DNA of 40,652 nucleotides. Origin: a virus. Both the position numbers and the translations under genes were made by a program. This document shows, in pieces, positions 7,214-38,723 of this stretch; position 1 is the stretch's first letter, and each line of letters starts with the position of its first letter. The notes beneath the pieces were generated by a model. The model searched no databases and was not told where the DNA came from. It saw only the letters and a program-made list of their open reading frames with translations. The DNA lies in IMG/VR virus record IMGVR_UViG_3300018411_000044, positions 1 through 40,652 of that record, one strand, 5' to 3'.

Positions 7214-8128
7214 GTGAGAACATATAATTTCATTATTGGTAAGCCAGTTAGATTCACAGGAAATACAATTAACATCCAAGAATCTGTTGATAAATCTGAA
7301 AACAATGCTTACCAGATAAAAGATAGTTTACAGATAGAGTTTGAGGTTGTCAAGGACAATACCGATAAACCAAACAAAGCCTACGTTACTGCCTACAACC
7401 TACCAGACACAATTGTACAATATCTAAAAGATAACCTCGATAACTCATTAGGTGGGATATTAGAAGCAGGACAAGATGGAAATAATGTCCAAGTCTTTGC
7501 TGGTGCAGTTGAATATATGGAAGATAGTTGGGACAGACATACACGGAAAACTAAGTTTATCTTTGGGGATGCAAAACAAAATTTAGCTTATGCTAAAACT
7601 AACAGGGCTTACCGTGCTGGAACTTCTGCAAACAAAATCATCAGCGATCTAGTTTCAGATATGAAACTCCCCGTTGGGCGTATTGCCAATGTATCTGGTT
7701 CAATTCAATCTGCTCGTTCATTCTCTGGGAAATGCTCAGATAACCTTTCTAAGTTCTGTAAAGAGTTTGGGGCTAATTTCTCAGTTCAAGATGGTGCAAG
7801 CTATATTACAGTAACAGGTAAGCGCTTTGAACAATTTGTTTATGAGATAAGTGAAGAAACAGGAATGATTGGTTCGCCTTCTCCTAAACAACCCTACATG
7901 AGTAAAGTTACCAAAGCCGCACAAGATGCAACAAAAGAAGATGTCGGTCTTGAAGTCAAAACACAACTGTTAGGTGCCATTATTCCAGAGTCTACTATTT
8001 ACTTAAAGTCTAGATATTACGATGGATTTTATAAAGTAATTAAAGTAACACACAGTGGAAGTTATGAAGGTGGAGATTGGACGAGTACACTGCAACTTGT
8101 AGAAACAACAGGAACATTAGTGCAATAA
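7214..8128 (+). CDS. Baseplate hub protein (gp44/D-like)
   Basis: The start is placed at GTG 7214 (MRTYNFIIGKP), because AGGGG lies 8 bases upstream; the GTG at 7205 overlaps that ribosome site. The product has 304 residues. It shows the layout of tail hub proteins: an N-terminal beta domain with YVTAYNLPDTIVQYL, then a gp27-like pair of domains around AGAVEYMEDSWDRHTR and ISDLVSDMKLP, and a C-terminal segment (YLKSRYYDGFYKVIKVTHSG) typical of hub proteins that carry the spike. It precedes the spike gene, with which it should form the central trimer. Confidence 0.6.
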   Translation: MRTYNFIIGKPVRFTGNTINIQESVDKSENNAYQIKDSLQIEFEVVKDNTDKPNKAYVTAYNLPDTIVQYLKDNLDNSLGGILEAGQDGNNVQVFAGAVEYMEDSWDRHTRKTKFIFGDAKQNLAYAKTNRAYRAGTSANKIISDLVSDMKLPVGRIANVSGSIQSARSFSGKCSDNLSKFCKEFGANFSVQDGASYITVTGKRFEQFVYEISEETGMIGSPSPKQPYMSKVTKAAQDATKEDVGLEVKTQLLGAIIPESTIYLKSRYYDGFYKVIKVTHSGSYEGGDWTSTLQLVETTGTLVQ

Positions 8129-8164
8129 TCATTAATTATGTAGTTGTAATTTAAGGAGGTATAG

Positions 8165-8800
8165 TTGAAGATAACATCTAACAGGTTTGATGATGCGCTC
8201 TCATTATACCTCGGAAGACAGATGCAGGAAATCCATACACAAATGCCTGCTAAAGTTGTAGCAGTAGATTATGGAAAAGGTACAGTCGATATTGAGGTAT
8301 TGTATGAAGGTGTGTCGCCAGTTGCTCAGCTTTTAAACTATAAATACCCAACAATATATGATGTTCCAGTTCATACATATAGTGCCCAAGGTGGCACAAT
8401 TAAAATAACAGTGCCAATTAAAGCAGGTGACATTGGTGTCGTAAAGTTCCCTGAGAAACCTATGGATGGTTTTAAAGGTGGAAAAGTTTCTATTGATTTA
8501 GAAAAGAATATAGATACTCATGTACTTCAAGGTATTTGTTTTATTTCAGAAATTTCTACAGAAACAACTCCAGTTTCCATTGATCCTGAAAATTTAATCA
8601 TCCAACACAATACAACAAAAATCACAATTAAAAAAGATAGTGTTGAAGCTGTGACAGACCAAGATTTTAAAATCAATGGAGCAAAAGTAACATCCGATGG
8701 TGATTTTGTAACCAGTGATGGCATTAGCCTAAGAAATGTAAAACAAGCTTATAATAGTCATAATCATGGAGGAGGTGTAACACCTTCTCCCCAACTATAA
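8165..8800 (+). CDS. Cell-puncturing spike, Gp138-like
   Basis: The start codon is TTG, with GGAGG 5 bases upstream. The 211-residue protein has an N-terminal OB-fold region typical of the phi92 gp138 family (QMPAKVVAVDYGKGTVDIEVLYEG, then GDIGVVKFPEKPMDGF). It continues into repetitive beta-strand sequence suited to a triple-stranded helix. Near the end SHNHGGG provides the His-x-His motif that in such spikes binds an iron ion at the tip. The protein should pierce the outer membrane. Order after the hub and before the gp25-like wedge supports the call. Confidence 0.8.
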   Translation: MKITSNRFDDALSLYLGRQMQEIHTQMPAKVVAVDYGKGTVDIEVLYEGVSPVAQLLNYKYPTIYDVPVHTYSAQGGTIKITVPIKAGDIGVVKFPEKPMDGFKGGKVSIDLEKNIDTHVLQGICFISEISTETTPVSIDPENLIIQHNTTKITIKKDSVEAVTDQDFKINGAKVTSDGDFVTSDGISLRNVKQAYNSHNHGGGVTPSPQL

Positions 8801-8809
8801 GAGGTCTAT

Positions 8810-9331
8810 GTGGCGACTGAATATGTAGATTTGCAATTAGACCAAACTACCGGAGATCTCTTGATAACAGAGTCAGGAGATTTCCAATTAGTCACTGAGA
8901 ACATAAATTCATTATGGCAACGATTGTTGCTAAGGTTTTCAATTTGGCAAAATGAATGGCAGTTTAATTTAGATTTTGGTTTCCCTTATGAGAGTTACTT
9001 AGGAAATAAAATACCTAAAGAAGTTGTTGATGCCAAGATCAGAGAAACAGTACGTCTAGAGCCAGATGTATTAAGAATACAAGATTTTACTTCTAGTTTC
9101 AATACCCAAACTAGGCAATACGAAGCATATTTGACAGTAATAACACAAGAGCTTGAAGAAGTCAATGTTGCCTACTTTGGTGATGGTTATTATTATCCCT
9201 CCCCTGATGAAACTGCACAAGATTTGTGCCCTTCTTTAGGTGAAGTTGAATATGGTGCAAAACTTTATCATTTTATTAATTTTAGACTGCCTCTAGGTGG
9301 TGATGCAACGTGGATTAATACTTGGAGTTAA
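8810..9331 (+). CDS. Baseplate wedge protein, gp25-like
   Basis: The start codon is GTG, with AGAGG upstream, and the product has 173 residues. The sequence LQLDQTTGDLLITESGDFQLVTENINSLWQRLLLRFSIWQ, seen in parts such as SLWQRLLLRF, followed by EWQFNLDFGFPYESYLG, matches the gp25/W family (DUF2634-like). This family seeds wedge assembly and sheath polymerisation. The C-terminal 40 residues, with YYYPSPDETAQ, go beyond the core family. It lies directly upstream of the J-like gene, as in nearly all contractile systems. Confidence 0.75.
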   Translation: MATEYVDLQLDQTTGDLLITESGDFQLVTENINSLWQRLLLRFSIWQNEWQFNLDFGFPYESYLGNKIPKEVVDAKIRETVRLEPDVLRIQDFTSSFNTQTRQYEAYLTVITQELEEVNVAYFGDGYYYPSPDETAQDLCPSLGEVEYGAKLYHFINFRLPLGGDATWINTWS

Positions 9332-9340
9332 GGAGAGATT

Positions 9341-10840
9341 TTGGCAAATTATGGTCTAAATAGTTTTGGCTTTCTTAGGCCATCTCTAACAGAAATTGTA
9401 GAACAAAGAAAACAAGCATATCGAGATTTGTTTGGTTCTAATATTAATACTAATGACAACAGCGTGATAGATAAGATTGTATCAATCGAAGCAGATAGAG
9501 AAAATCAAGTCTGGATGCAAATGCAAGAAGTCTATGATAGTCAAACATATCAAGGTGCTGAAGGTAAATATCTTGATGATTTATTTTCTCGTAGAGGTAT
9601 TTACCGTAATGGTTTGACTAAAGCAACGGGCAGTGTAGAAATGGTACTCAACAGTACAGTACCTTATAATACTACCTATTCTGCCGGAACTTACAAAGTA
9701 AATTCTACTTTTATTTTACAAGAAGATGTGCTGGTTGCAGGTAATATTTTTGCACATACATTATTGAATTCTCAAATAAATACAGGTAGTTATACTTTTA
9801 CCATTTTAAATACAACTACCTCAGTTACTGCCACACTTAATTTGACACTAACTAACAAAACACCTAATAGTGTAGAGTTAAACTCTTTCTTCAATAGTAT
9901 TAAGACATTTATTGTTGATAATACAATTAACGAAAATCTAAGTCGAATTTTTATCGATAATGTTGCTGGTTCTATGTATATAGGTTATACTTCTGCAACA
10001 GAAATGGTAGGTTTGGCTCAAAAAGTTGATTTTAAAATTTCTCCGCAAATCGGTAACAAAACAATTAGGTTTGATGTCATTGCAGAAGATGCAGGATTGA
10101 ACCCAGTTAGTATCGGTCAGGTTACAACAATCGCTCCTCAACCTTCCGGTTATGTTTCTATTGGTAATATTGAAGCATTCTTTAGTGGTGCAAATATTGA
10201 ATCAGACAGTGAGTACAGGGCCAGAGCAAGCGCACAAATTAGCTCCCCAGCGGCGGCAACTCGTTCTGCTATTATCAACGGACTATTGACTGGTGTAGAT
10301 GGTGTTCGAAAGGTTAAGATTTTCTCTAACCCCACTGGAACTACAAGCCCTGCTGGAATCCCACCCTACAAGTTTATTCCTGTTGTTTACGGGGGAGATA
10401 CACCTTCAATTTCTCAGAGGCTGTATGAACTGATTGCTTGTTCTAATGCAACATATGGGACAGTAAACTATGATATTGAAACAGAAGATGGACAAGTAGA
10501 AACAATTTATCATACTAAGGCAACAGAAAAAGATGTTGCAATTAGAGTATCATACAAGACTGTTCAGAATAGACCTTTAGCAGATTCTGAAAGAAGTAGT
10601 ATTACATCAGGATTGTTAGATACAATAAATGGTTACCCTATTAACCCAACAATATACAATATCCAATTAGTTCAAAGCGTTACTTCTGCTGTTCCTTTGA
10701 TTCAATTCCAAGTATTGACAGTTGATATAAAATTAGCCACAGATCCTGATAGCTCCTACTCCTCTGCTACATTTAATACTGATATTGAAGATGTTCTTAT
10801 CCTAGCAGAAGCTGATGTGTATTTCAACCAAATTGTATAA
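9341..10840 (+). CDS. Baseplate wedge protein, gp47/J-like
   Basis: This protein of 499 residues has a TTG start with AGGAG 7 bases upstream. It has the baseplate J family layout: an N-terminal region with SIEADRENQVWMQMQEVYDS and GAEGKYLDDLFSRRGIYR, a beta-rich centre, then the conserved segment ESDSEYRARASAQISSPAAATRSAI (residues about 287-311) with GVDGVRKVKIFSNPTG. The C-terminus has a DVAIRVSYKT repeat-like fold. With the gp25-like and DUF2612-like proteins it forms the wedge that links the hub to the fibres. Confidence 0.85.
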   Translation: MANYGLNSFGFLRPSLTEIVEQRKQAYRDLFGSNINTNDNSVIDKIVSIEADRENQVWMQMQEVYDSQTYQGAEGKYLDDLFSRRGIYRNGLTKATGSVEMVLNSTVPYNTTYSAGTYKVNSTFILQEDVLVAGNIFAHTLLNSQINTGSYTFTILNTTTSVTATLNLTLTNKTPNSVELNSFFNSIKTFIVDNTINENLSRIFIDNVAGSMYIGYTSATEMVGLAQKVDFKISPQIGNKTIRFDVIAEDAGLNPVSIGQVTTIAPQPSGYVSIGNIEAFFSGANIESDSEYRARASAQISSPAAATRSAIINGLLTGVDGVRKVKIFSNPTGTTSPAGIPPYKFIPVVYGGDTPSISQRLYELIACSNATYGTVNYDIETEDGQVETIYHTKATEKDVAIRVSYKTVQNRPLADSERSSITSGLLDTINGYPINPTIYNIQLVQSVTSAVPLIQFQVLTVDIKLATDPDSSYSSATFNTDIEDVLILAEADVYFNQIV

Positions 10841-10851
10841 GGGATCCTCGT

Positions 10852-11466
10852 ATGGCATTAAAAGATATTGACCATATACAAATAAAAGAAAACTTCGTAC
10901 AAGAAGGTCTAGATTATCTCCCTGAAGCAATTCAAAAACCTAACATCCAAAAAGTTTTACAGATAGACTTAGAAAGATGGAAAGTTATTGATGATACACT
11001 GTACCAACTAGCTGTTAGACGGTTGTTATCTGAAGCAACAGGAATATATCTTGACGACATCGGGGCACGTTTCCAGATATATCGTAACGGTTTAGATGAC
11101 GATGACTATAGAGCGACATTGTTCCTAAAGACAGGTGAAGCACAAAAGCATGGAGCTCGTTCTGATATTATCAACGTATTGTATCAACTCCTTGGAAGTG
11201 AGTCTGTATTTACATGGAAAGGAGATAAGTATCGTTTTGATATTGCAATAAGCTCTCCTTGTTTTAATCTTGCAACTACGGCAGAGGATGTTGCTGCATT
11301 AATGCCTTTAATTACAGATCTACGAATTGTAGATGGTATAGGAGTCCCCTTTGTATTTGATGGAGATGACGATGGGGAAGGTTTTGGAATATCTAATGAT
11401 ACAAGCCTTCAACCAGAAGGTGGAAGATTAATGTTTACCTCGTATAAATCATCTTATGATATATAA
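10852..11466 (+). CDS. Baseplate wedge/tail protein, DUF2612-like
   Basis: This protein of 204 residues starts with ATG at 10852, 11 bases after the J-like gene. The segment LYQLAVRRLLSEATGIYLD followed by DIGARFQIYRNGLDDDDYRA is the DUF2612 signature as I know it; next comes LKTGEAQKHGARSDIINVLY. These proteins take the place of Mu gp48 or P2 gpI at the outer wedge and connect to the tail fibres. The short fibre gene follows. Its C-terminus is acidic and Gly-rich (DGDDDGEGFGISND). Confidence 0.7.
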   Translation: MALKDIDHIQIKENFVQEGLDYLPEAIQKPNIQKVLQIDLERWKVIDDTLYQLAVRRLLSEATGIYLDDIGARFQIYRNGLDDDDYRATLFLKTGEAQKHGARSDIINVLYQLLGSESVFTWKGDKYRFDIAISSPCFNLATTAEDVAALMPLITDLRIVDGIGVPFVFDGDDDGEGFGISNDTSLQPEGGRLMFTSYKSSYDI

Positions 11467-11478
11467 TAAGGAGAAATT

Positions 11479-12159
11479 TTGGCACAACCAACAAACCCCC
11501 TGATCGTGTGGGCAAGTGATGATGTCATTTTGCCAAATGCGCAAAGACCAAACAGAGCTTTACCTCCAGAATCTTTAATTCAAACAGGTTGGGATTTATC
11601 TCAAAAACCTGCTGCTGATGAGTGGAACTATCTCCTTAATAATAACGGGCAGTATATTAAGTGGTTGATAGAAGAAAAAATAAATGAGTTTCTAAAGAAA
11701 TCTGAGAACCTTAATGATCTTGCAAACAAGGCTACAGCTAGAACCAATCTTAGTGTTTATAGCAAAGCGGAAGTAAATAGTAAAACAATTTCTGCCGGAA
11801 ATGGACTGACAGGGGGTGGAGATCTAAGTGCTAATAGGACAATCTCTATGGGCACTCCAAGTACAGTTGGCCCAGCCACTTCCAACACTGCTTCTGGAAC
11901 TACACATACTCATGCCTTGGACGCAACAGGTAATGTTGCCGTTCTTACTGGATATTTGAATAACGGGGGTACAATACCGTTGCCATCTGGTTATACAGAG
12001 GCCCAATGTAAGTACACTGCATTTCCTGCAACTATAGGAGCTACTACAGCAGATGGAGACTTCTCTGTTACTCTTTCAGGTAGAGTTGTATCCATTACTG
12101 TAGATGGTGTTACCTCTGCTACGTCTAGTGCTGGGTACATTATCATAGGAGTTAAATAA
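11479..12159 (+). CDS. Short tail fibre protein
   Basis: The start codon is TTG, with AGGAG upstream, and the product has 226 residues. The N-terminal 65 residues (ASDDVILPNAQRPNRALPPE, and AADEWNYLLNNNGQYIKWL) look like a baseplate attachment domain. They are followed by the common fibre repeat SENLNDLANKATARTNLSVYS. A Gly/Thr-rich shaft (GNGLTGGGDLSANRTISMG, TTHTHALDATG) leads to a short C-terminal beta domain. The stop overlaps the next start (TAATG), coupling it to its chaperone. A receptor role is inferred, but no binding domain can be named. Confidence 0.7.
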   Translation: MAQPTNPLIVWASDDVILPNAQRPNRALPPESLIQTGWDLSQKPAADEWNYLLNNNGQYIKWLIEEKINEFLKKSENLNDLANKATARTNLSVYSKAEVNSKTISAGNGLTGGGDLSANRTISMGTPSTVGPATSNTASGTTHTHALDATGNVAVLTGYLNNGGTIPLPSGYTEAQCKYTAFPATIGATTADGDFSVTLSGRVVSITVDGVTSATSSAGYIIIGVK

Positions 12160-19396: not shown

Positions 19397-20236
19397 CAAA
19401 AGTTCAAGTTAGTCGCAACACCAACCCCGTTCTCTTATGAACTGCTGTACGGTTTCCCGCAAGATCGGATCATATCATACTCTACTCCCTTGAGTAGAAT
19501 CTTCCCATTTCGGTGCATCCTTCGCTTATGTCACCTACTCTACTCGATTCTCACAACAAATGCGGTTGTTGCTAATCTTTCGATGATCTCTGAACTTTGA
19601 GCTACCATGAATAATTTTTAGAGATGTGGGTCCAGTTCTGCCTTCTTTTTATGGCCCTTACGCAACCATAATCAAAACCGAGATCCCTTATCTCGCAAGA
19701 CGTATAGCCAGACTGTAATAACAAACAAATCTCTAAAATATCTGTTTCAGAATTAACACATCGCGCATTGTTCACACCTACAGCCGACCTGTTTTTGAGA
19801 GTGTAAGAATGCCCAATATTGTCGCCATGTGTAACCCATCTAAGATTACTTATTTGATTGTTCTGTCTATCACCATCGATATGGTCTACATCCGATAGGT
19901 TATTAGGATTAGGGATAAAACACTCGGCAATTAACCTGTGTACTGCTTTTGATGTTCTTTTACCATCTATACTAACAGCCACTATTAAGTAATCTTTCCC
20001 GTTGTTGTGAGATGACAACCTCTTGCCATATCTATTAAATACAGACCCATCTTCACAAACCTTATAACCATCACCATATTCTCTACTATTCATAATAACC
20101 CCTTAGCTGCTGATTGACATATATTGATACTCAGTTAATATGATAACATATTTTGTTGAAATATTCAATACTTAGCTTTCCAGCAATTAAAGAAGTTTTC
20201 ATCTATGTGTCGCCACATAGTGCCACAATTTTATTT
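19397..20236 (-). ncRNA. Group I intron in the DNA polymerase gene
   Basis: The intron lies between CAT (His) and GAT GAG (Asp Glu). P1 is exon CCAT with GTGG just downstream, ending in a U-G pair; only four pairs are clear. The minus-strand sequence contains AATTGCTGGAAA and AATCAGCAGC (P and Q type elements) before the endonuclease gene and TGATATGATCCGA (a variant of the usual AGATATAGTC) after it. It ends with G before GATGAG. A perfect hairpin, CTATGTG/CACATAG, lies near the 5' end. It is 840 bases long. Confidence 0.8.
19602..20093 (-). CDS. Intron-encoded HNH endonuclease (DNA polymerase intron)
   Basis: This 163-residue protein lies wholly inside the polymerase intron. A short N-terminal NUMOD4-like part (GYKVCEDGSVFNRYGKRLSS) leads to the HNH region AVHRLIAECFIPNP, VDHIDGDRQNNQISNLRWVTH (read in parts, about residues 55-97). 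A short C-terminal DNA-binding segment follows (CEIRDLGFDYGCVRAIKRRQNW). It resembles the other two intron-encoded enzymes here but is shorter. Its expected target is the intronless HDE-coding region of related polymerase genes. Confidence 0.85.
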   Translation of the reverse strand: MNSREYGDGYKVCEDGSVFNRYGKRLSSHNNGKDYLIVAVSIDGKRTSKAVHRLIAECFIPNPNNLSDVDHIDGDRQNNQISNLRWVTHGDNIGHSYTLKNRSAVGVNNARCVNSETDILEICLLLQSGYTSCEIRDLGFDYGCVRAIKRRQNWTHISKNYSW

Positions 20237-22558
20237 ATGGTAGTAAATAACTCTGCGCACACCTTTATCATACAATCCTGTACGGACAAGTTTTAAATGC
20301 AACAGTATCCCTACAAGATCAAACAGGCAAGCACCGCCAGATTGTTGATAGGCATTCAACAAGCTATGTTTTGAACGTGTCCAAATCTTTCTACCATCCA
20401 TAGCTGGGATATATTTCTTTCCTGTTGCTTCCCAGAAGTTCTCCAACCATTCCTTTCTACCTTTCAATCCGGGGTTATTATCCCAAAAGGCATCAATTAC
20501 TGCTTGAGCTCTGTCTTGACTGATACCTAACATAACAGATATCTTTGTAGCCTGTGCTCCGTACATAATACCGTAGGTAACTCCCTTACCATCATCACGA
20601 GTTACTTCCCTTCCTGCTGCTTCAGAGTACGCCAAGGCGTTTCGTGTATGTGCATCTCCAGATTCCATAATTTCTAGATAGTAACCGTTATCAAAAGCAT
20701 AAGCACCTGCCGCAGCAATCATACCTTCTAGGTTACTACCATCAATACCAATCATAAAACAATTTTCTGGAACTGTCCACAACTCTCTCATTTCCTTACC
20801 GAGCAAAACAGACTTTTTAGGTTTGGGCATATTAGCACAAACACTATGTTTCCTACGGTTTGTGTTGGTTATTCCGTTAGCCCTTGCCGGAAGTTTGCCA
20901 TCCTTTTCAAGTCTTGGATGATTAAGCAGTCCTGTTTCCTTTTCGTCGTCTAATGGTTTCAAAACAGATCTACGGTTTCGTAGACTTAGCCACTTAACAA
21001 TTTGTTTTGCCAACTCACCTTCAACCCTTTCCAAGTTAGGGCACAAAGTTCCCCGTGCATCTTTTAGTTGTGGAGATGTAGGCAATCCTCTTGCTTTGCG
21101 CCTCAACAACCTAAAAACACCATCGGCATCTGAATTCCATTTTGCTTTTGTAATCCCTAATTGCTTAAGGATATACTCAAAGTATTCCGTTTCTGGTAGT
21201 TTTGCAATGTATTCAGAAACTAACTTATCAACTTCAGCTTCCGGTCTTTGCTTTTTAAACTGGTCTTTTGTTACATCCTTCAACCTCCAAATGGTAGGAA
21301 CCCAACCAGCCTCTCTTACCAAATACCTCTTGATATCATCCTGATTTGACAGCTTCATATCTTCCATCAAAAGCTCTGGCATCTTGCCAGTATTTAAATC
21401 CTCCTTTGCCCTTAATAGTAAATCATCAGGCAAAGGTTTTGGTACAGGTTCAGATAGTTTTTTCCTAATAAAATCTGGCATATCTTTTACATCGGTTATA
21501 CCAAACTTATTACAAAATGTCTCGCCAGTTTTACTAAGACTACCATCACCTTTGAATGCCTTTTTTGGTGGTTCAACATAATCAAAGGCTTTCATGTTTA
21601 CAGGATATCCAAGCTTGATTAACCATTTCCAACCAATACTGCTAATCTCTCCTGAACCTTCTGCAAAGGGTTTTGCTGGAAAACTTGGCTGTTTGGATTT
21701 TGCAACAGGTTTTTTAGGAAGTTGTGGCTCTACAAAGGCTTCAATTTCCGCCATCATCAAATCAATTCTTTCTAGCAAAATCTCAGCTTTGTCTTTTCTA
21801 AAAACAACACCCTGAAATTCTTGTTCTGCCATCAAGAAGTCAGCCAACATATTTCTACGAAGTGCATTCTTCCAGTTTATTTGTTTGTTGCCGGTTGGTG
21901 TTGACCCTTCTGAGAGCATGAAATCTTCTTCTCCTCTCATACTTGCCTCTTGCAAAAGACGAGTCCAAACCATTTCATTAATCAACACGTCTTCCCAAAC
22001 ACGATCAACATAAGTCCACAAATCTTGATTGCGCCAGTCATCAATTTGAACTTTCTTATTGGCTACACGATAACCCCAAGCCTCTAATCCGTGACCACCA
22101 ACAGTCTTCATTTTGCCTGTAACAGGGCATTTGACTTTCATAGGACAACCATCAGGTACAGGTCGGTCAGGATAAAGGCATCGACTCATGGACAGCGTAT
22201 CAAACAAAGCAACAGGTTTGTCATTTATTGTACCACGACATTCCTTATCTTTAAACATATCGTACTGAATACCAAACATCTTCTTTAACATTGGAAAATC
22301 ATAAAAGAACGAGTTATGACATCCAAGACCTAAAGGTTCGGTAGTTAACCAAGCTGACAATTCTGAAAAGTCAAGTATCTTAACATTTGCACCCTTAGAC
22401 TCAACGAAATTAACTGCCTGTTGGTATTGTGGATGTGAGAAATCAAGAAATAATTTCCAATTGTCCTTTCCAAACTCTTTAAACAGTCCGCAATGCACTT
22501 TAGTAACTTCTTCTAGGAGTCCGTTAGCCTCCCAGTCAAATATAAACAAACCTTTCAA
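20237..22558 (-). CDS. DNA polymerase (T7-like family A), exon 1
   Basis: The start is TTG 22558, with GGAGGT 4 bases upstream. This exon codes for 774 residues, and the full protein has 863. The 3'-5' exonuclease is present: Exo I FDWEANG (about 8-14), Exo II LGCHNSFFYDFPML, and an Exo III-like WEDVLINEMVW. The polymerase part has motif A GIDGSNLEG with Asp606, and motif B KGVTYGIMYG with Lys658 and Tyr662. Exon 1 ends YYH, the first residue of motif C. The overall likeness is to T7 gp5 (704 residues) with an enlarged middle. It should replicate the phage genome together with the adjacent primase-helicase. A thioredoxin-binding loop cannot be identified. Confidence 0.9.
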
Positions 22559-22912: not shown

Positions 22913-23880
22913 CCTTTATGTTCAGCTACGGTCGTTAATCGTAACCCGTGGATTATGTTATCTCAACATTAACTCACAGCTCATAGCTTTCCTATAAGAG
23001 CAGACTATATCATCATCCAATATTTCATTGGAGTTTACTGTTTCGGGACACTTGCCCCTACTTCCTTTCGGAATAGTCGTTGAACGTCTTAGCTCGCTTA
23101 TTTCTTTTGTTATCAAAAGATTTCCATATGTATTTGGAAGATAGGTTTACCCAATCTCTCCTAGATCTTATATTTAGTAGTTGGCAACGTGTAACCCTGA
23201 AATCACACATATTTAAAATTTTGTTTGTTGATTTACCTTCTTGCAACAACTCACAAATAAACATCACTTGCTCATCTGTTAGTTTAGAGTTCGGATGTTT
23301 ACCATGCCTCGGTAGTAATCCAACTCTTACAGAATGTTCTATGTTTTCTTTGTTTGTTACCCATTCAAGATTGTCAACAGTATTGTTATGTTTGTTGCCG
23401 TCTTTGTGGTTCACTTCTGGTTTGTTATCTGTGTTCGCAATAAAGGCTTCCGCAACCAGTCTATGAATATATGCAGGAACTCTTTTATTGTTTATACGGA
23501 TATTAACTACCAGATATCCAGTCTTCGATTCCGACTGTTTTAGATATTTGTTTGTGAACAGACTAAATACATTACCTTTTTCATCCACTAAGTACATAGG
23601 ATCGCACGTTTCTTTTAATACCATAAAACTACCTCAAATATTATTGTGTATAGTATATTATAGCATTAAACGCATCATAAGTCAAGTTAATTTCGCTGCT
23701 GATTGCCCAATCCTTCTGATTTTCAAACCTTGTTGGTTGCAAAATGGCAACTGAGTTATTTTATAACCCACCGGAATTCTCCGGCAATTTTCACGATTAT
23801 CTTTACAGATTGCGTTGTGGTTCAGAAAGCTCTAAGGGTGTTCCAGCAATTAAGTAAATTTTAAATGCGCCATAATATTA
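22913..23880 (-). ncRNA. Group I intron in the primase-helicase gene
   Basis: The intron lies after CGT (Arg) at 23,883-23,881. P1 is exon ATGCGT with GCGCAT, ending in a U-G pair. A short P10, TATT with AATA at the start of exon 2, supports the 3' site. Core elements AATTGCTGG, CAATCAGCAGC, GATATAGTCTGC and the near-td 3' end (CGATTAACGACC, CTGAACATAAAGG) are visible on the minus strand. Phase requires the intron to end at the second G of AAAGG. It is 968 bases long. Confidence 0.85.
23058..23624 (-). CDS. Intron-encoded HNH endonuclease (helicase intron)
   Basis: The protein has 188 residues. An N-terminal NUMOD4-like part (MYLVDEKGNVFSLFTNKYLK) precedes the HNH region YIHRLVAEAFIANT, VNHKDGNKHNNTVDNLEWVT (about residues 57-99). 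A DNA-binding C-terminus follows (KLTDEQVMFICELLQEGKS, RSRRDWVNL). It lies in a loop of the helicase intron. The likeness to the tape measure intron enzyme in the HNH core suggests common descent. Confidence 0.9.
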   Translation of the reverse strand: MVLKETCDPMYLVDEKGNVFSLFTNKYLKQSESKTGYLVVNIRINNKRVPAYIHRLVAEAFIANTDNKPEVNHKDGNKHNNTVDNLEWVTNKENIEHSVRVGLLPRHGKHPNSKLTDEQVMFICELLQEGKSTNKILNMCDFRVTRCQLLNIRSRRDWVNLSSKYIWKSFDNKRNKRAKTFNDYSERK

Positions 23881-25383
23881 ACGCATCATTGCTCGGCTAC
23901 CTGCAAACTGAGCAGATTGGACTTGTCCTCCAAACTCGTGCGGAGCACCAGACTCCGGTTTATTCAAATGACAAAAGCAATAGTATGTGAAACCTAAATC
24001 TTTTGCCATCTTAGAGATTTCATCGCTAAATCGCTCAAGCTCTGTATTGGCCTCCGATGCTGACAACCCCTGTACCAAGCGAGTAATCGGATCGATTATA
24101 ATATCCTCAGCACCCTCTACCAAAACGGCATGACGGATTGCACCTTTAACCTCGTCCCAAACAGCACGGCCATAGTTAGAATAATAGATGATGTTATCAC
24201 CAACTGCATCAGTTGCAGCCATCAATTCTTCTTGTTTGTAGTATCCATAATCACCTTCACTTCGTGGATTACCCCAGACATCTACATAACCACCACCTTC
24301 AACAGGGATCAGTACCTTTTCAGCATTAGTAAATTCTTTGTGGTTAATCTTACCGGCTACTTTTTTACAGGTTACATCATTTTCTTCTTCAAATTTGAAA
24401 ACACCAACCTTTCTTTTCTCTTCAACAATAATATGTTCAATAAGTTGGTTTACGAATTCACTTTTCCCCATCTTCACACCAGCACCGACAAAATAACCCT
24501 CTCCTTTTCTTCGTCCTAGTGTCATTTTTGTCATCGTGGCCCAAGGCCATGCCTTTCCTAATTTAGGGATTTCATGGGCTTTTTCTCTGAACTGATCATA
24601 AGTCCTGAAGCCTTCTGGGATGTATTCAACAGGTTTCATAGCTGCCCAGTACAACTGCTCTGACATACCTTGTTTGATCATGTCACAAGGATCAAAATCA
24701 TCAGGCAAATCCGCAACTTTAATCTTAGGCATCAAAGAATAGACAGCAGCAACAGCATCTTTACCTTTCATTATCTTCTTTGCTTTTTCTTCTTCTGTTG
24801 CCTTGTCAGCATCAAATGCAAGAATTATTTCATCAAACTTACCAATAAATTTTTGGTTTGATTTCTGTCCTAGATTCTGAACTGCATTAGCAGTACCATT
24901 ACTGATTGATAGGACTGTTGGGTTTGCTTTTGGATAACGTTCTTTGATTGTCTGCCAAAGAACTGCACAATCATATTCACCTTCTGTGATCCACAGCTTC
25001 TTCCCTCCTGTCTTGTTACCACTTGTTTGACCAAATAGGTCACAAGCTACACTCTGGAATCCAACAGTAGAGAAGTGCATTTTTTGTTGTTTTGGAATTG
25101 TCAGGTCACGTTTCTTATACCCAACAATCTTTCCGTCCAATGTATAAGGGAAATAATGTGCCTCTTGTGTGAGTCCATCTTTAGCAGATAGTCGTGTACG
25201 GATACCAAAATGCTCTGCTGTCTCTTTAGAAATACCACGTTCAGGGATTGCAAGACAAGGGAAATTTTCAATAAACTCAAGTGATTCTTCTTTGTTGTAA
25301 CTCACTCCACCTCCATCATAATGTGTTTGTTTTGATTTAGGATTTTTATACCCTTTTTTGTAACCTCCAAAAGATCCCTCCAT
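23881..25383 (-). CDS. Primase-helicase (Twinkle/T7 gp4-like), exon 1
   Basis: This exon codes for 501 residues, and the full protein has 598. There is no N-terminal Cys4 zinc module. The TOPRIM part has EGEYD (134-138) and AFDADK with Asp191 and Asp193. The RecA-type helicase has Walker A GAGVKMGKS (300-308), Walker B IIIDPIT (about 425) and a motif near CHLNKP. The end, GSRAMMR, is cut by the intron. The protein should unwind the fork. Primer synthesis is uncertain without the zinc domain. It sits between the Pif1/Dda-like helicase and the polymerase in the leftward operon. Confidence 0.9.
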
Positions 25384-34301: not shown

Positions 34302-35768
34302 ATGAACATAGATATTACAACTAAACACAAGAAAGACGCAGAAGCACTAATACGTGGTATCCGTCTAGGTATGATTAACTTATCAAACAAAGAGATGAAG
34401 CTATTCGGTATTGTTAGTACACAATTAAAAATTGAAATTGTAGATTATATTTCTACGTGTGCAACTGATGGGCAAAAGTTGATGATTAACCCATTGTTTG
34501 TTCTAGGATTAACTAAATCTGAATTGGATACCTGTGTTAACAAAATGAAAGATAATCCATTTCATTCTGTAAAATCAGAAGAAGATTTTAAGCTAATGTA
34601 TTCTAAGAAGTCTGTAAAGTTTTTACAGTTTTGTGTGATTCACGAACTATCCCACTGTATTCATGATCACTTTACTCGTGTCGGAACAAGAGATAAATCT
34701 ATTTATAATCAAGCAGCAGACTACAGAATCAATGTAGATGCTTGTACTCAGATTTGGGGGAGTATTGAAAAGGCAATAAAGCAAGAACCAATTTTTAAAC
34801 TGTTATGCCTGAAAGAAAAATATAAAGCTAAGAGTTTTACATCAGAAATTATTTATGATGACTTAGTTAAAGATAAACAAGAAAATAATGATAAGTGGAG
34901 TTCAGGACAAGAAGGACAGCCTTTGGATGATCACATTTATAGTGATGGGTGTGGTTCTGGAAAACCTTCAGATTTTGATAAGTTTGTCAAAGAAGTGTTG
35001 GGTATTCCTGATAAACCACACAACTTTGGTAATCAAAATAATAGTGATGTTCAATCTTCTGTACAAATGAATAACAACAGAATTAAAGAGGCTTTTGTTC
35101 AAACAGCAAAAGATATTGGATATGGTTCTGGGGGAATCATAGAACAAATCAAAGAGGTGTCAAAACCAGTTATTAGTTGGAAAAGAATTCTAAGAAAGAG
35201 TTTGAACGGAATTAGTAAATCAGAATATGATCCTAAGAAACTGCATCGTCGTGTTCATGGTCTGTCGCTGTTTATGAAACAAAACAACATGTTAGACCCT
35301 AAACTTGGTATGTATCGTGCGGGCAAAAAACCAGAACCAGTAGTGAATGTGTTTGCGCTATTTGATACAAGCGGAAGCATTAGTCAGAAAGAAAAAGAAA
35401 TTATGTTATCCGAAACTTTTGGCATCTGTCAGCAATATTCATCATTCAACTTGACAGTTGCTTGCTGGGGTACTAACTTTATCGAAAATAGCCTTAAAGT
35501 GTTCAACAAACAAAATAAGAATGATCTGAAAGATTACAAATTCATTTCTGGAGGTGGTACAGATGTCAACTGCATCGCTTCTTATCTTGAAAATCAAAAA
35601 CTTAAAAGAACAGATAAAATTGTAGTCTTTACCGACATGTATTTTGGAGACCCAAGAGAAAAGTTGACAAAGTATTCAAAGCACCTTATATTCGTTAGTA
35701 CGCAGAAAAACATGGAGTTTGCAACAAGAGGATTAGGTCGTTATGTACAGTACGATAAACATATGTGA
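34302..35768 (+). CDS. DUF2201-like metallopeptidase/VWA protein
   Basis: The protein has 488 residues. Residues 114-123, HELSHCIHDH, hold a zinc-protease HExxH with a further His, followed by NQAADYRIN, as in the DUF2201 putative metallopeptidase domain. A low-complexity linker spans about residues 190-260 (Gly, Asp, Asn, Gln and Ser). The C-terminal part is a VWA-like domain with the MIDAS motif FDTSGSIS (near 352-359) and a GGGTDVN segment. Proteins of this type are known to pair with MoxR ATPases. Here the pair sits in the rightward early block. Whether the peptidase site is active is not known. Confidence 0.75.
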   Translation: MNIDITTKHKKDAEALIRGIRLGMINLSNKEMKLFGIVSTQLKIEIVDYISTCATDGQKLMINPLFVLGLTKSELDTCVNKMKDNPFHSVKSEEDFKLMYSKKSVKFLQFCVIHELSHCIHDHFTRVGTRDKSIYNQAADYRINVDACTQIWGSIEKAIKQEPIFKLLCLKEKYKAKSFTSEIIYDDLVKDKQENNDKWSSGQEGQPLDDHIYSDGCGSGKPSDFDKFVKEVLGIPDKPHNFGNQNNSDVQSSVQMNNNRIKEAFVQTAKDIGYGSGGIIEQIKEVSKPVISWKRILRKSLNGISKSEYDPKKLHRRVHGLSLFMKQNNMLDPKLGMYRAGKKPEPVVNVFALFDTSGSISQKEKEIMLSETFGICQQYSSFNLTVACWGTNFIENSLKVFNKQNKNDLKDYKFISGGGTDVNCIASYLENQKLKRTDKIVVFTDMYFGDPREKLTKYSKHLIFVSTQKNMEFATRGLGRYVQYDKHM

Positions 35769-36120
35769 AGATTTAGAATTGAATCAAATACTTTACAACG
35801 GTTCTGGAACACTAGAAATTATAGTACAATGTAAAAATTTATATCAATCTATTACTAAACGAAGAAATTGTTATCAGTTACTATATCAGGAAGAGGGTGG
35901 TGATGTTAAATTTTATGTTGATTCTGATTTAGTAGAAAACCCAAAATCACTGACTCAGTACGATTGGCAATTGCTGAAGATTCTTCATCCTGAAGTTAAA
36001 AGTTATCAATGGGAAATCTTCCAGATACTGAAAGATCTTGTTGACAACGTAATTGAAGAAGAGTACGCTTTATCTGAAATTAAATCGACCTTACAAAAGG
36101 AGAATAAAATTGAATCTTGA
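35743..36120 (+). CDS. Hypothetical protein
   Basis: This 125-residue protein starts inside the end of the VWA gene (26-base overlap), so it is probably coupled to it. Segments are LYNGSGTLEIIVQCKNLYQS, DVKFYVDSDLVENPKSL and a helical C-terminus (IFQILKDLVDNVIEEEYAL). No family is recognised. No ribosome site is evident at 35,743, so a start elsewhere in the overlap cannot be excluded. Confidence 0.5.
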   Translation: MYSTINICEDLELNQILYNGSGTLEIIVQCKNLYQSITKRRNCYQLLYQEEGGDVKFYVDSDLVENPKSLTQYDWQLLKILHPEVKSYQWEIFQILKDLVDNVIEEEYALSEIKSTLQKENKIES

Positions 36121-36727
36121 TTACCAAAAGAGCTGTATTGAAAATTACTTTGAAGGTGTCTATGTGCCTGATGATACGTTTATTGCAGGTGGTTGTATCC
36201 TTTCTATTATGACAGGACAACCTGTAGCGGATATCGACATGTACTTCTCTAGTCGAGAAGCTGTTGCTGAATTTATTAAAACAAATGAGAACGTTTATCT
36301 GCATAGTGTAACTGACAAAAGCATTAGCCTTAGTCTGCAAACTTCAAAATACGGAACAAAAGAGTTTCAGTTGATTTATTTTGATAATTATAAAAGTGCA
36401 GATGAAATATTTTCTGACTTCGACTTCAGTGTTTGTATGTGTGCCTATAGTTTTGATGATAAGCAGTTTTATTTCCATGATGATTTCTGGAAAGATGTTG
36501 CTGCCAAGAAGTTGAAGTTTAATAGCGGAACTAAATTTCCTATTATCTCGATGCTCCGTGTCAACAAGTATCAAAAGAAAGGTTACGATATCAGTAATTC
36601 TGAACTTCGTAAGATTGCCCTTGCAGTAAGTAAGTTGAACCTTGAAGATAAAGAGACTTTCATACATCAGTATGGTAGTATGTATGGTTTAGGTTGGGTG
36701 ACAAAGATTAGAGAGGTTGAGTATTAA
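36110..36727 (+). CDS. Nucleotidyltransferase-like protein
   Basis: The start is TTG 36110 (MNLDYQKSC), because AAAAGGAG lies 7 bases upstream. A longer frame from 36,053 would run through the previous gene. The product has 205 residues. FIAGGCILSIMTGQPVADIDMYF has the GG...DxD pattern of the polymerase-beta nucleotidyltransferase fold (Gly-Gly, then Asp-Ile-Asp, about residues 22-44). FSDFDFSVCMCAY may supply the third acidic residue, and RVNKYQKKGYDIS follows. Such proteins add nucleotides to RNA or protein or modify tRNA ends. The substrate here is unknown. The C-terminal helical part is short compared with CCA-adding enzymes. Confidence 0.6.
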   Translation: MNLDYQKSCIENYFEGVYVPDDTFIAGGCILSIMTGQPVADIDMYFSSREAVAEFIKTNENVYLHSVTDKSISLSLQTSKYGTKEFQLIYFDNYKSADEIFSDFDFSVCMCAYSFDDKQFYFHDDFWKDVAAKKLKFNSGTKFPIISMLRVNKYQKKGYDISNSELRKIALAVSKLNLEDKETFIHQYGSMYGLGWVTKIREVEY

Positions 36728-36826: not shown

Positions 36827-36991
36827 ATGAAACCTTATGATAAAATCAAAGTAGATTTGAGTTGGGTCAATGATATCTATTTTGACACAGAAGAAGATAC
36901 AGTAACAGCAAATGTATTTGTTGAACCACTTGTACTGTTCTGTAAAGAAATGTTGGAGAAGTATGAAAAGGATACAGAAAAAGATGAGTAA
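36827..36991 (+). CDS. Small acidic protein, unknown
   Basis: This 54-residue protein begins MKPYDKIKVDLSWVNDIYFD and ends KYEKDTEKDE, with ACAGGAG 7 bases upstream. It is acidic, with a beta-like first half and a helical end. It is the only clear gene between its own promoter (36,768) and the terminator at 37,072-37,116. It may act on its own or serve as the carrier for the structured RNA that follows. Confidence 0.6.
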   Translation: MKPYDKIKVDLSWVNDIYFDTEEDTVTANVFVEPLVLFCKEMLEKYEKDTEKDE

Positions 36992-37016
36992 TTGAATATG
37001 GAAATTATACCTCTGT

Positions 37017-37054
37017 CTTGCCACTTTAGGGGCCTCTAAGCCAGAACTGGCAAG
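37017..37054 (+). ncRNA. Structured 3' region, possible small RNA
   Basis: CTTGCCA (37,017-37,023) pairs perfectly with TGGCAAG (37,048-37,054). Inside, TTAGG pairs with TCTAA around GGCC. A 9-base direct repeat, CACTTTAGG, occurs at 37,022-37,030 and 37,064-37,072, so a second fold may compete. With the terminator at 37,072-37,116 this forms a compact RNA of about 100 bases after the small gene. An attenuator for the polymerase-like gene downstream is the other option. Confidence 0.4.
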
Positions 37055-37071
37055 GGCTGAAGGCACTTTAG

Positions 37072-37116
37072 GAGTATTAAAATGAAGTTGACCTCTCTTA
37101 GATACTCTTTTTTTTT
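37072..37116 (+). terminator. Terminator with long T-run before the polymerase-like gene
   Basis: GAGTATTAA (37,072-37,080) pairs with TTA-G-ATACTC (37,098-37,107, one bulged G) around a 17-base loop. Nine T residues follow. Confidence 0.7.
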
Positions 37117-37143
37117 ATATTATAAATAAAGGATTAAGAATAA

Positions 37144-38409
37144 ATGTACTTATTAGCTAAAACTATAAACAAAGAATACAAGCCAGCATCAGACTGGCTA
37201 TTTTCTATATTCAATAAATACAATATCGTTACGCTATCAGACACTAAAACAAAACAAATTAAACAAATAATTAATTGTATGGTTTACAATCTATCTCGTA
37301 CAGTCACTAACGGTATCGACAACATTTATATCACCTTAGACCGTAATATGTTCTATGATAAACCAATTATCAATGGACAAAAGAGTAAAGCAAGCCCAAT
37401 AGATTATAAAGCTTTCAAATTGTTTCTTGATGTTATGCAGAAATGTGGTTGTATTCTTGACAAGGGTGGTTTCAGTCACTATGATGATAACGGGGATGCT
37501 TGTTTTGAACAATCTATCTTAACTTTATCAGAAGAGATTTTTGAAAACTTATATGTATTGTTACAGGATACTAGCAAACCTCTTCTTGAAAGTGTGCTAG
37601 AATTGCGGGATGAGAACAGTAAACCTAAACAGTTTAAATCTGTTGAAGAAACAAGAGCGATGATTAGGGAGTTGAAAATGTACAATGAATTGAGTGAACG
37701 CTTTGATGTTCGTGATCAGAATGGACAACGGTTGTTTGTTAATACGATGCGTATTTTTAATGGTACATTTGATGAGGGAGGTAGATTTTATAATGCACAG
37801 GGCGTTGTTCAATCTCTGCCTTCAGAAGAACGCGCAAAGATCACAATTGATGGCTCTCCCGTAACAGAGTGTGATTATACAGCGCTTCACCCAAGTATCT
37901 TGGCAACAGAACAAAAATATGATTTTGATGAAGGTTTCGATCCGTACAACATCGAAATTGCAGGATATGATAAGAAGTTGTTGCGAAAGCTTGCAAAAAT
38001 GGCTATGCTTATTCGGCTGAATTGTCGCAATGATGCAAGTTATGTGATGGCACTTAGTCAGTGGATCAGCAAAAATCTGAGCACAAAACAATTATATAAG
38101 GATAAACAGATCCCCAAAATTATTATTGATCCTATGGAAATATTGTATGCCATTATTGATAATAATCCATATTTACTTGAGAAGTTCCAATCTAACGCGA
38201 TTGTGGGGTTGAGGTTGCAATGTGTTGATAGTAGTATTGCTGCAAAAGTAATCAATTACTTTGTTCAACAAAACAAGTGTATACTTTGTGTTCATGATAG
38301 TTTTATTGTCAAACAAGAAGACCAGCAAGAACTTCTTGAGGTAATGGAATGGGCCTTTTATGATAGATTAGGCTCTAAAGTCAATTGTAAAATAGATGTT
38401 AAATACTAA
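37144..38409 (+). CDS. Single-subunit polymerase-like (palm-domain) protein
   Basis: The protein has 421 residues. It shows motif A TECDYTALHPSILA with Asp244, a motif B-like helix KLLRKLAKMAMLIRLNC (about 278-294) and motif C CVHDSFIVK with His384, Asp385 and Ser386. The HDS form of motif C is like T7 RNA polymerase, while DY..LHP is like family A DNA polymerases. There is no exonuclease domain; the N-terminal 200 residues are helical and unknown. It is separate from the true replicative polymerase at 20,237-22,558. The residues before motif A (GGRFYNAQGVVQSLPSEERA, read in parts) recur in uncharacterised phage and plasmid proteins as I recall. Its template, product and role are unknown. Confidence 0.6.
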   Translation: MYLLAKTINKEYKPASDWLFSIFNKYNIVTLSDTKTKQIKQIINCMVYNLSRTVTNGIDNIYITLDRNMFYDKPIINGQKSKASPIDYKAFKLFLDVMQKCGCILDKGGFSHYDDNGDACFEQSILTLSEEIFENLYVLLQDTSKPLLESVLELRDENSKPKQFKSVEETRAMIRELKMYNELSERFDVRDQNGQRLFVNTMRIFNGTFDEGGRFYNAQGVVQSLPSEERAKITIDGSPVTECDYTALHPSILATEQKYDFDEGFDPYNIEIAGYDKKLLRKLAKMAMLIRLNCRNDASYVMALSQWISKNLSTKQLYKDKQIPKIIIDPMEILYAIIDNNPYLLEKFQSNAIVGLRLQCVDSSIAAKVINYFVQQNKCILCVHDSFIVKQEDQQELLEVMEWAFYDRLGSKVNCKIDVKY

Positions 38410-38434
38410 GGCAGCCTATAGCTGCCTTTCTTTT
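38410..38434 (+). terminator. Terminator after the polymerase-like gene
   Basis: GGCAGC and GCTGCC form a perfect 6-bp stem around CTATA, followed by TTTCTTTT. It begins right at the stop codon. Confidence 0.85.
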
Positions 38435-38519
38435 ATCTGCAATTTTCTTCAAAAACTCCTTTCAAAAGTTCCTAAGTTGTGGGATAATCGCCTCATCAAA
38501 TCAAAGAGAGGATTATGGA

Positions 38520-38723
38520 ATGTTGAATGTAAAGATCGATGACGATACCAATTTGGTTGTGTACTCTGAGTGGGATTCTGGGAGTCATAAATGCTTCAAG
38601 GCTCTTATTCATCAAAAGGGTGAATATTGTGGTGAAACTTTAAATCAACACCTAACAAAAGAACAAATCCAAGAAATTGAGTTGACAATTCTGGGCAAGT
38701 TGTTTAGTACGGTAAAAGGTTAA
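38520..38723 (+). CDS. Small protein, unknown
   Basis: This 67-residue protein begins MLNVKIDDDTNLVVYSEWD, then has SGSHKCFKALIHQKGEYCGE and a helical end (KEQIQEIELTILGKLF). GAGAGGA lies upstream; the earlier ATG at 38,514 gives only three codons. A weak -10-like GATAAT at 38,483 lies in front, with no good -35. No family is recognised. Confidence 0.6.
   Translation: MLNVKIDDDTNLVVYSEWDSGSHKCFKALIHQKGEYCGETLNQHLTKEQIQEIELTILGKLFSTVKG

Follow-up and report, generated by a model that had tools for sequence, protein, structure and literature searches.

The window analyzed here, which is the whole 40,652-nt stretch of DNA of virus record IMGVR_UViG_3300018411_000044, encodes on its plus strand (37144..38409) a compact family A-like polymerase of 421 aa, which is intact and has an ATG start. 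A Shine-Dalgarno-like AAAGGA sequence is located upstream of the reading frame, at about 37128-37133, and inspection of the sequence showed a terminator-like hairpin with a T run at the stop codon (38408..38428, plus strand). The comparison with related phages defined the gene as the content of a variable site, which is bordered by two conserved plus-strand ORFs, one of 54 aa on the left-hand side (36827..36991) and one of 67 aa on the right-hand side (38520..38723). Profile matches located in the same phage, both on the minus strand, a full-size family A DNA polymerase (PolA, 775 aa, 20231..22558) and a TOPRIM primase-helicase of the T7 gp4 type (23878..25383). The compact polymerase has no exonuclease domain, and so its original prediction as a small, exonuclease-less protein encoded together with a full polymerase was confirmed. 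The nucleotidyltransferase-like gene pointed out in its vicinity is indeed present in the window, as an ORF at 36053-36727 matching phrog_1614 at 6e-8. A meaningful pairing of the two genes was rejected, because their adjacency is not conserved, and in phage 2L372D they are about 7 kb apart. Also rejected was a pair of a MoxR ATPase and a VWA protein (phrog_1314) as conserved neighbors, which was seen by the window copy and one distant copy, because phrog_1314 was found in only 5 of 33 carriers. The protein encoded at 34302-35768 of the window is a DUF2201 metallopeptidase/VWA protein, for which the PHROG (1314) label "HNH endonuclease" looks wrong when judged from Pfam.

The structure of the protein was modeled with AlphaFold2 on a 33-row alignment of diverse members of its family. 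The model (pLDDT 86.9, pTM 0.85) contains a palm and fingers like those of family A DNA polymerases and of T7/mitochondrial RNA polymerases. The top PDB matches found by Foldseek all belonged to the Pol I family (E 3.5e-6), and superposition with VIA-align gave Z values of 15.2 for the apicoplast Pol (236 residues, 4.1 Å), 14.6 for the yeast mitochondrial RNA polymerase (249 residues, 3.4 Å), and 13.7 for T7 RNA polymerase (254 residues, 3.4 Å). The profile–profile comparison, which had been proposed against both enzyme types, was positive for one of them: in hhalign runs, which were single-target comparisons with E-values that are indicative only, a Pol I-family alignment was matched at 99% probability, with D244 and D385 paired to D705 and D882 of E. 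coli Pol I, while the two T7-type RNA polymerases compared gave no match. The N-terminal domain (residues 1-148, 37144..37587), when modeled alone (pLDDT 83.6), consisted of three helices and a beta hairpin. This domain could be described as winged-helix-like, with weak structural support (best Z 6.0 against winged-helix proteins), and a Foldseek search with it returned no match at E ≤ 0.001.

Alignments of relatives were used to locate the conserved motifs, all of them on the plus strand. The G212-G-R214-F-Y216 sequence (37777..37791), which is the equivalent of the TxGR/GRxY motif, precedes the palm, and is followed by the invariant R230 (37831..37833). Motif A, E242-C-D244-YTAL-H249-PSI (37867..37899), includes Asp244, located within ECDYTALHPSIL, and H249, which occupies the position of the E710 steric gate of Pol I. 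The D266-P-Y268 sequence (37939..37947) is what we take to be the equivalent of DxH in DNA polymerases or DxY in T7 RNA polymerase. The helix that had been noticed as Lys-rich corresponds to the motif B helix, R281-x3-K285-x3-L289-x3-N293 (37984..38022), and motif C, V383-H-D385-S-F-I (38290..38307), places Asp385 within CVHDSFIV. Residues R214, R230, D244, Y268, R281, K285, H384, and D385 were invariant among the 33 diverse aligned members. In a larger set of 122 diverse relatives D244 (120/120), K285 (121/121), and R230 (119/119) were never replaced where aligned, and R281 was retained in 120 of 121. The corresponding count for D385 was 121/121, which is inflated in the bacterial rows, as these were gathered with an HDS-containing pattern, while motifs A and B are independent of this pattern; in the phage and virus rows, which are free of most of this bias, D385 was present in 43/43. 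Hence, the palm with two catalytic aspartates, including the positions assigned to Asp244 and to VHDS, was borne out by both the predicted fold and the conservation.

The position five residues after the motif A aspartate, where Pol I has the steric-gate E710, is occupied by His in 107 of 121 relatives, and by Glu in three. All three Glu-gate relatives, and only they, have DE rather than DS or DA in motif C. Because they form a single clade (support 0.995), this E710/E883 covariation counts as a single event in evolution. Most members have Leu, Met, or Asn at the O-helix position that corresponds to F762 of Pol I. In known enzymes, features such as the loss of the steric-gate Glu and these O-helix residues relax the choice of deoxyribose. 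Judging from the alignments, the replacement of this Glu by His would permit the use of ribonucleotides; a direct precedent for His was not found.

The compact polymerase belongs to an already described, uncharacterized family, PHROG 4756, which is identical with divPolA2. The PHROG 4756 profile ("unknown function") covers residues 1-418 with an E-value of 1.8e-84, while sequence searches of Pfam, NCBIfam, and PDB with the 421-aa protein returned no relative, and neither this protein nor the 33 members matched Pfam PF00476 (DNA_pol_A) or PF00940 (RNA_pol). A tblastn search matched 217 phage records, including phages of Rheinheimera (Barba; for example Barba19A gp041, E 4e-21), Vibrio (including ICP1), Aeromonas, Pseudoalteromonas, Shewanella, and others, and further, more distant members were obtained from IMG/VR scans. 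The closest sequenced relatives at the polymerase gene are Aeromonas phages 2L372D and 2L372X (94% identity) and PhAER-3 (91%). The genomes contain one to three divergent copies, with one in the 40.7 kb fragment studied here and two in its close relative 2L372D. The gene was found in most of the ICP1-like and Barba phages examined, and in several phages homing-endonuclease genes are located immediately downstream of it. The divPolA2 proteins have been described as extra PolA-like proteins of barbaviruses and others, present in one to three copies, with an intact palm and a thumb that is not recognizable, and roles in repair or as an RNA polymerase were suggested, with the function left open (PMC11348598, 2024). 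The two descriptions agree on the active palm, the globular N-terminal domain, the absence of an exonuclease, and Pol I and mitochondrial RNA polymerase as the best structural matches. Unlike the present analysis, the 2024 paper connects the divPolA2 proteins with neither mobile elements nor TV-Pol nor a replication origin; the words "mobile" and "integrase" are absent from its text, and TV-Pol is mentioned for small viruses only (PMC11348598).

When bacterial genomes were scanned once with an alignment of six sequences, 166 loci encoding relatives were detected, of which 80 were kept, mainly from Alpha-, Beta-, and Gammaproteobacteria; 79 of these 80 hold an ORF of the polymerase family. In 45/80 loci the fetched flank contained a tyrosine integrase (median distance 1.3 kb), and a serine resolvase was present in 16/80. 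Among the 24 tRNA/tmRNA-linked loci that were checked, 13 contain, beyond the polymerase, a perfectly matching direct repeat (17-58 bp) of a segment of the tRNA or tmRNA gene, while a rough count gives an expectation of about 0.0002 chance 17-mer matches of this kind per locus. As these repeats flank the polymerase, they mark the ends of elements, which are 4.7-11 kb long. Among the smallest is the element of locus L140 (5543-10280, 4,658 bp; tRNA-Arg, 45 bp repeat), and others are those of L144 (7,579 bp; tRNA-Ala, 54 bp repeat), L177 (8,460 bp; in the tRNA/tmRNA-repeat set), L135 (9,290 bp; tRNA-Pro, 58 bp repeat), and L134 (about 11 kb; tmRNA). In L111 the polymerase, an integrase, and a small gene of the helix-turn-helix type (HTH_17) are framed by housekeeping genes. 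Some elements also hold restriction-modification or other defense-type genes, and such cargo varies while the polymerase is constant. The data showed that the relatives belong to the core of small integrative elements. Among the recurrent neighbors of the bacterial copies no helicase cluster of the D5 kind appeared. The L140 element was observed to contain, besides the polymerase, a surface-adhesin-E-like gene and an integrase that seems to be divided between two frames.

This gene context is similar to that of TV-Pol proteins, which were described as minimal family A polymerases of transposons and viruses, 400-600 aa long and predicted to be primase-polymerases (Iyer, Abhiman, Aravind 2008, PMC2579912). 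In Methylobacterium, Loktanella, Paracoccus, and others, a TV-Pol subset with an N-terminal domain has integrase, gamma-delta resolvase, Bro-N/KilA-C, and restriction-modification genes as neighbors (PMC2579912). The compact polymerase fits this family, as it has in common with it the two aspartates, the hairpin Arg, the RxxxK of the fingers, and the lack of a nuclease domain. The TV-Pol neighborhood is matched by the bacterial relatives, including a Bro-N/KilA-C gene in L136 as in the published elements, but not by the window copy, and the N-terminal domain, all-helical according to Iyer et al., is modeled here as helices with a beta hairpin. In phage Ma-LMM01 the best match of the palm HMM was gp030, which is located beside transposases and has D-x4-H and K-x3-L-x3-N motifs; the match is weak (E 0.0038) and was obtained only with the larger palm HMM, while the A6 profile gave no match in this genome. 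This protein is presumably the TV-Pol meant in 2008.

A biochemically studied TV-Pol is CCPol of SCCmec, an exonuclease-less A-family polymerase, which together with its partner MP is able to prime DNA synthesis de novo (PMC7581432, 2020). The CCPol–MP system resembles the compact polymerase in its integrative element, in the A-family enzyme without exonuclease, in the two catalytic aspartates, and in the proposed role as a replication module. On the other hand, CCPol primes only with the separate MP protein, while the compact polymerase has a fused N-terminal domain, and CCPol keeps the equivalents of E710 and F762 (E174 and F225), where the compact polymerase has His249 and Leu289. Another comparison is offered by the PICMI satellites, in which prim deletion lowers the copy number (PMC10803314, 2024). 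These are also small (about 6 kb), with a core of int, a small regulator, and one replication enzyme, but they integrate at fis rather than at tRNA genes. PICMI satellites were rejected as possible carriers of the gene, because their primase (DUF3987/DUF5906) belongs to another family. Because the elements share little else, the polymerase can be regarded as taking the slot of the PICMI primase.

The relative in ICP1_2006_E, ORF100 (58951-60618), has tail genes on one side and the major head gene on the other. The theta replication origin of ICP1 was published as mapped "near 60 kb", and so ORF100 co-locates with the published origin, in this one case and with an origin position good to a few kb. 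The gp97–gp103 interval of ICP1 phages (L004 10618-13642; L201 8133-11986) contains two different polymerase alleles, which are a 555-aa member with ORF98-102 in ICP1_2006_E, and a 434-aa member of another clade in 2017_DhaF. As these members come from different clades, the gene at the origin has been replaced by a remote family member, which fits an initiator or replicon swap, in a single case. Iteron-like repeats were not enriched beside the gene (4/193 segments versus 2/177 controls), and the gene was within about 2 kb of the GC-skew minimum in 2 of 10 phages. ICP1 itself was not among the two, so as an origin marker GC skew was wrong for this phage. In 2L372D the orthologue of the window copy is located at 14 kb, away from the skew minimum, and the second copy at 79 kb, 6.7 kb from this minimum. 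The polymerase occupies the window site (36991-38520) also in 2L372D and TS9, while in 4L372D (MK813939, about 23.2-25.5 kb, L216) the same flanking ORFs enclose two other ORFs, one of 149 aa that is helix-turn-helix-like, and one similar to GIY-YIG/T5orf172 nucleases. Hence, the window copy is not essential to the whole genus and is one of several interchangeable cassettes, and it may serve a role that is not needed by every genus member. In a FastTree analysis of 120 sequences, based on 192 columns of the palm, the phage and bacterial members were mostly in separate clades, yet interleaved, a topology which would fit repeated exchange between phages and integrative elements. Because of the low deep support the direction of this exchange is not readable from the tree.

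The genomic context suggests that the compact polymerase could be a primer-making enzyme, which starts replication near its own gene; we estimate the probability of this reading at about 0.48. It is favored because the gene is a core gene of integrative elements and co-locates with the ICP1 origin, while the fact that the phages already carry a primase-helicase of the T7 gp4 type counts against it, as do the lack of iteron enrichment, the variable site of the window copy, and the weakness of the winged-helix match. Of the functions named in the original prediction, primase thus gained from the context of mobile elements and of the published ICP1 origin, while nothing was found in favor of an untemplated polymerase. 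In such a mechanism the N-terminal winged-helix-like domain would recognize or grip DNA close to the gene, the palm would synthesize a short primer there de novo, this primer would start replication of the phage or element, and the normal PolA and primase-helicase of the phage would take over afterwards. The several paralogues of some phages could each serve a different origin or could be extra mobile copies. A more specific version, which we regard as tentative and doubtful in its entirety, would have the divPolA2/TV-Pol protein act as a primase-polymerase specific to an origin, at which it initiates theta replication in ICP1-like phages. In this version, phages would swap the protein and its origin jointly, as one exchangeable replicon module, as suggested by the two unrelated ICP1 alleles and the other genes in 4L372D. 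Replication of the small elements integrated at tRNA genes, which may be satellites of these phages, would depend on the same protein, and its His-gate branch would make RNA or mixed primers.

The similarity to T7-like single-subunit RNA polymerases, with which the protein has in common the palm and fingers fold, the HDS motif C, and the lack of a steric-gate Glu, could instead suggest a small RNA polymerase of the phage, which transcribes phage genes from promoters read by its N-terminal domain. This function, also named in the 2024 description (PMC11348598), would agree with the structural alignments, in which the mitochondrial and T7 enzymes score as well as Pol I, and with the lack of a T7-type RNA polymerase above the Pfam cut-off in the 33 carrier records (0/33). 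It is nevertheless unlikely, as the profile comparison links the family to Pol I and not to T7 RNA polymerase, the protein is half the size of these enzymes, without a Pfam RNA_pol match or a T7-type N-terminal domain, and its catalytic core is much shorter (100 residues from K285 to D385, versus about 181 in T7 by published numbering). Moreover, few-gene elements of 4.7-6 kb hardly need a transcription enzyme of their own. We consider somewhat more improbable an accessory DNA polymerase acting in repair, translesion synthesis, or recombination, the other proposal of the 2024 authors (PMC11348598), although the occurrence alongside PolA or another DNA polymerase, the missing exonuclease, the variable gene neighborhood, and the one-clade variant with Glu at both discriminating positions, as in DNA polymerases, are all consistent with it. 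Nearly all members differ from the Pol I family proper in having no steric-gate Glu, and a repair role leaves the core-gene status in minimal int-plus-polymerase elements unexplained.

The divergent copies within single genomes, the other genes, including a nuclease-like ORF, at the 4L372D site, the homing-endonuclease genes just downstream in several phages, and the two unrelated alleles at the ICP1 locus could also be explained if the gene was mainly a passenger in phages, that is a mobile-element gene or a part of a swapped cassette, whose needed role has been lost. This is improbable, because the invariance of the catalytic residues across large divergence means that the activity is selected, and the gene is retained in most ICP1-like and Barba phages examined. 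A template-independent or defense-related polymerase is very improbable; the defense-type genes of some bacterial elements point in this direction, but that cargo differs between elements whereas the polymerase does not, and the family A template- and primer-side residues R214, R230, R281, and K285 are all retained.

The new observations presented here are the bacterial mobile-element loci with tRNA/tmRNA repeats, the co-location with the ICP1 origin, and the His at the steric gate. ICP1 is a model phage, for which a starter of theta replication was not found named in the literature covered, and the presence of an uncharacterized polymerase gene at its mapped origin makes the role of this gene open to deletion testing. 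When divPolA2 and TV-Pol are joined, a single family of polymerases of roughly 400 aa results, which spans lytic phages and minimal integrative elements, and is a natural setting for the question of how de novo priming and sugar selection were acquired or lost among family A enzymes.

Several single loci had additional features. In the Psychrosphaera element (L177) an RNase HI gene directly follows the polymerase (7314-9103), which is the only such case in the set, and one Loktanella contig contains two polymerase-family genes within 5 kb (L167, 3089-4399 and 7818-8837). On a 50-kb virus contig without a Pfam DNA_pol_A match (G009, L095) a relative is encoded at 10389-11822, just upstream of HNH and terminase-like genes. 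A macro-domain gene is present in one polymerase-bearing locus (L124, 11017-11520), and in Barba19A an annotated macro-domain gene is located about 2 kb downstream of the polymerase copy.
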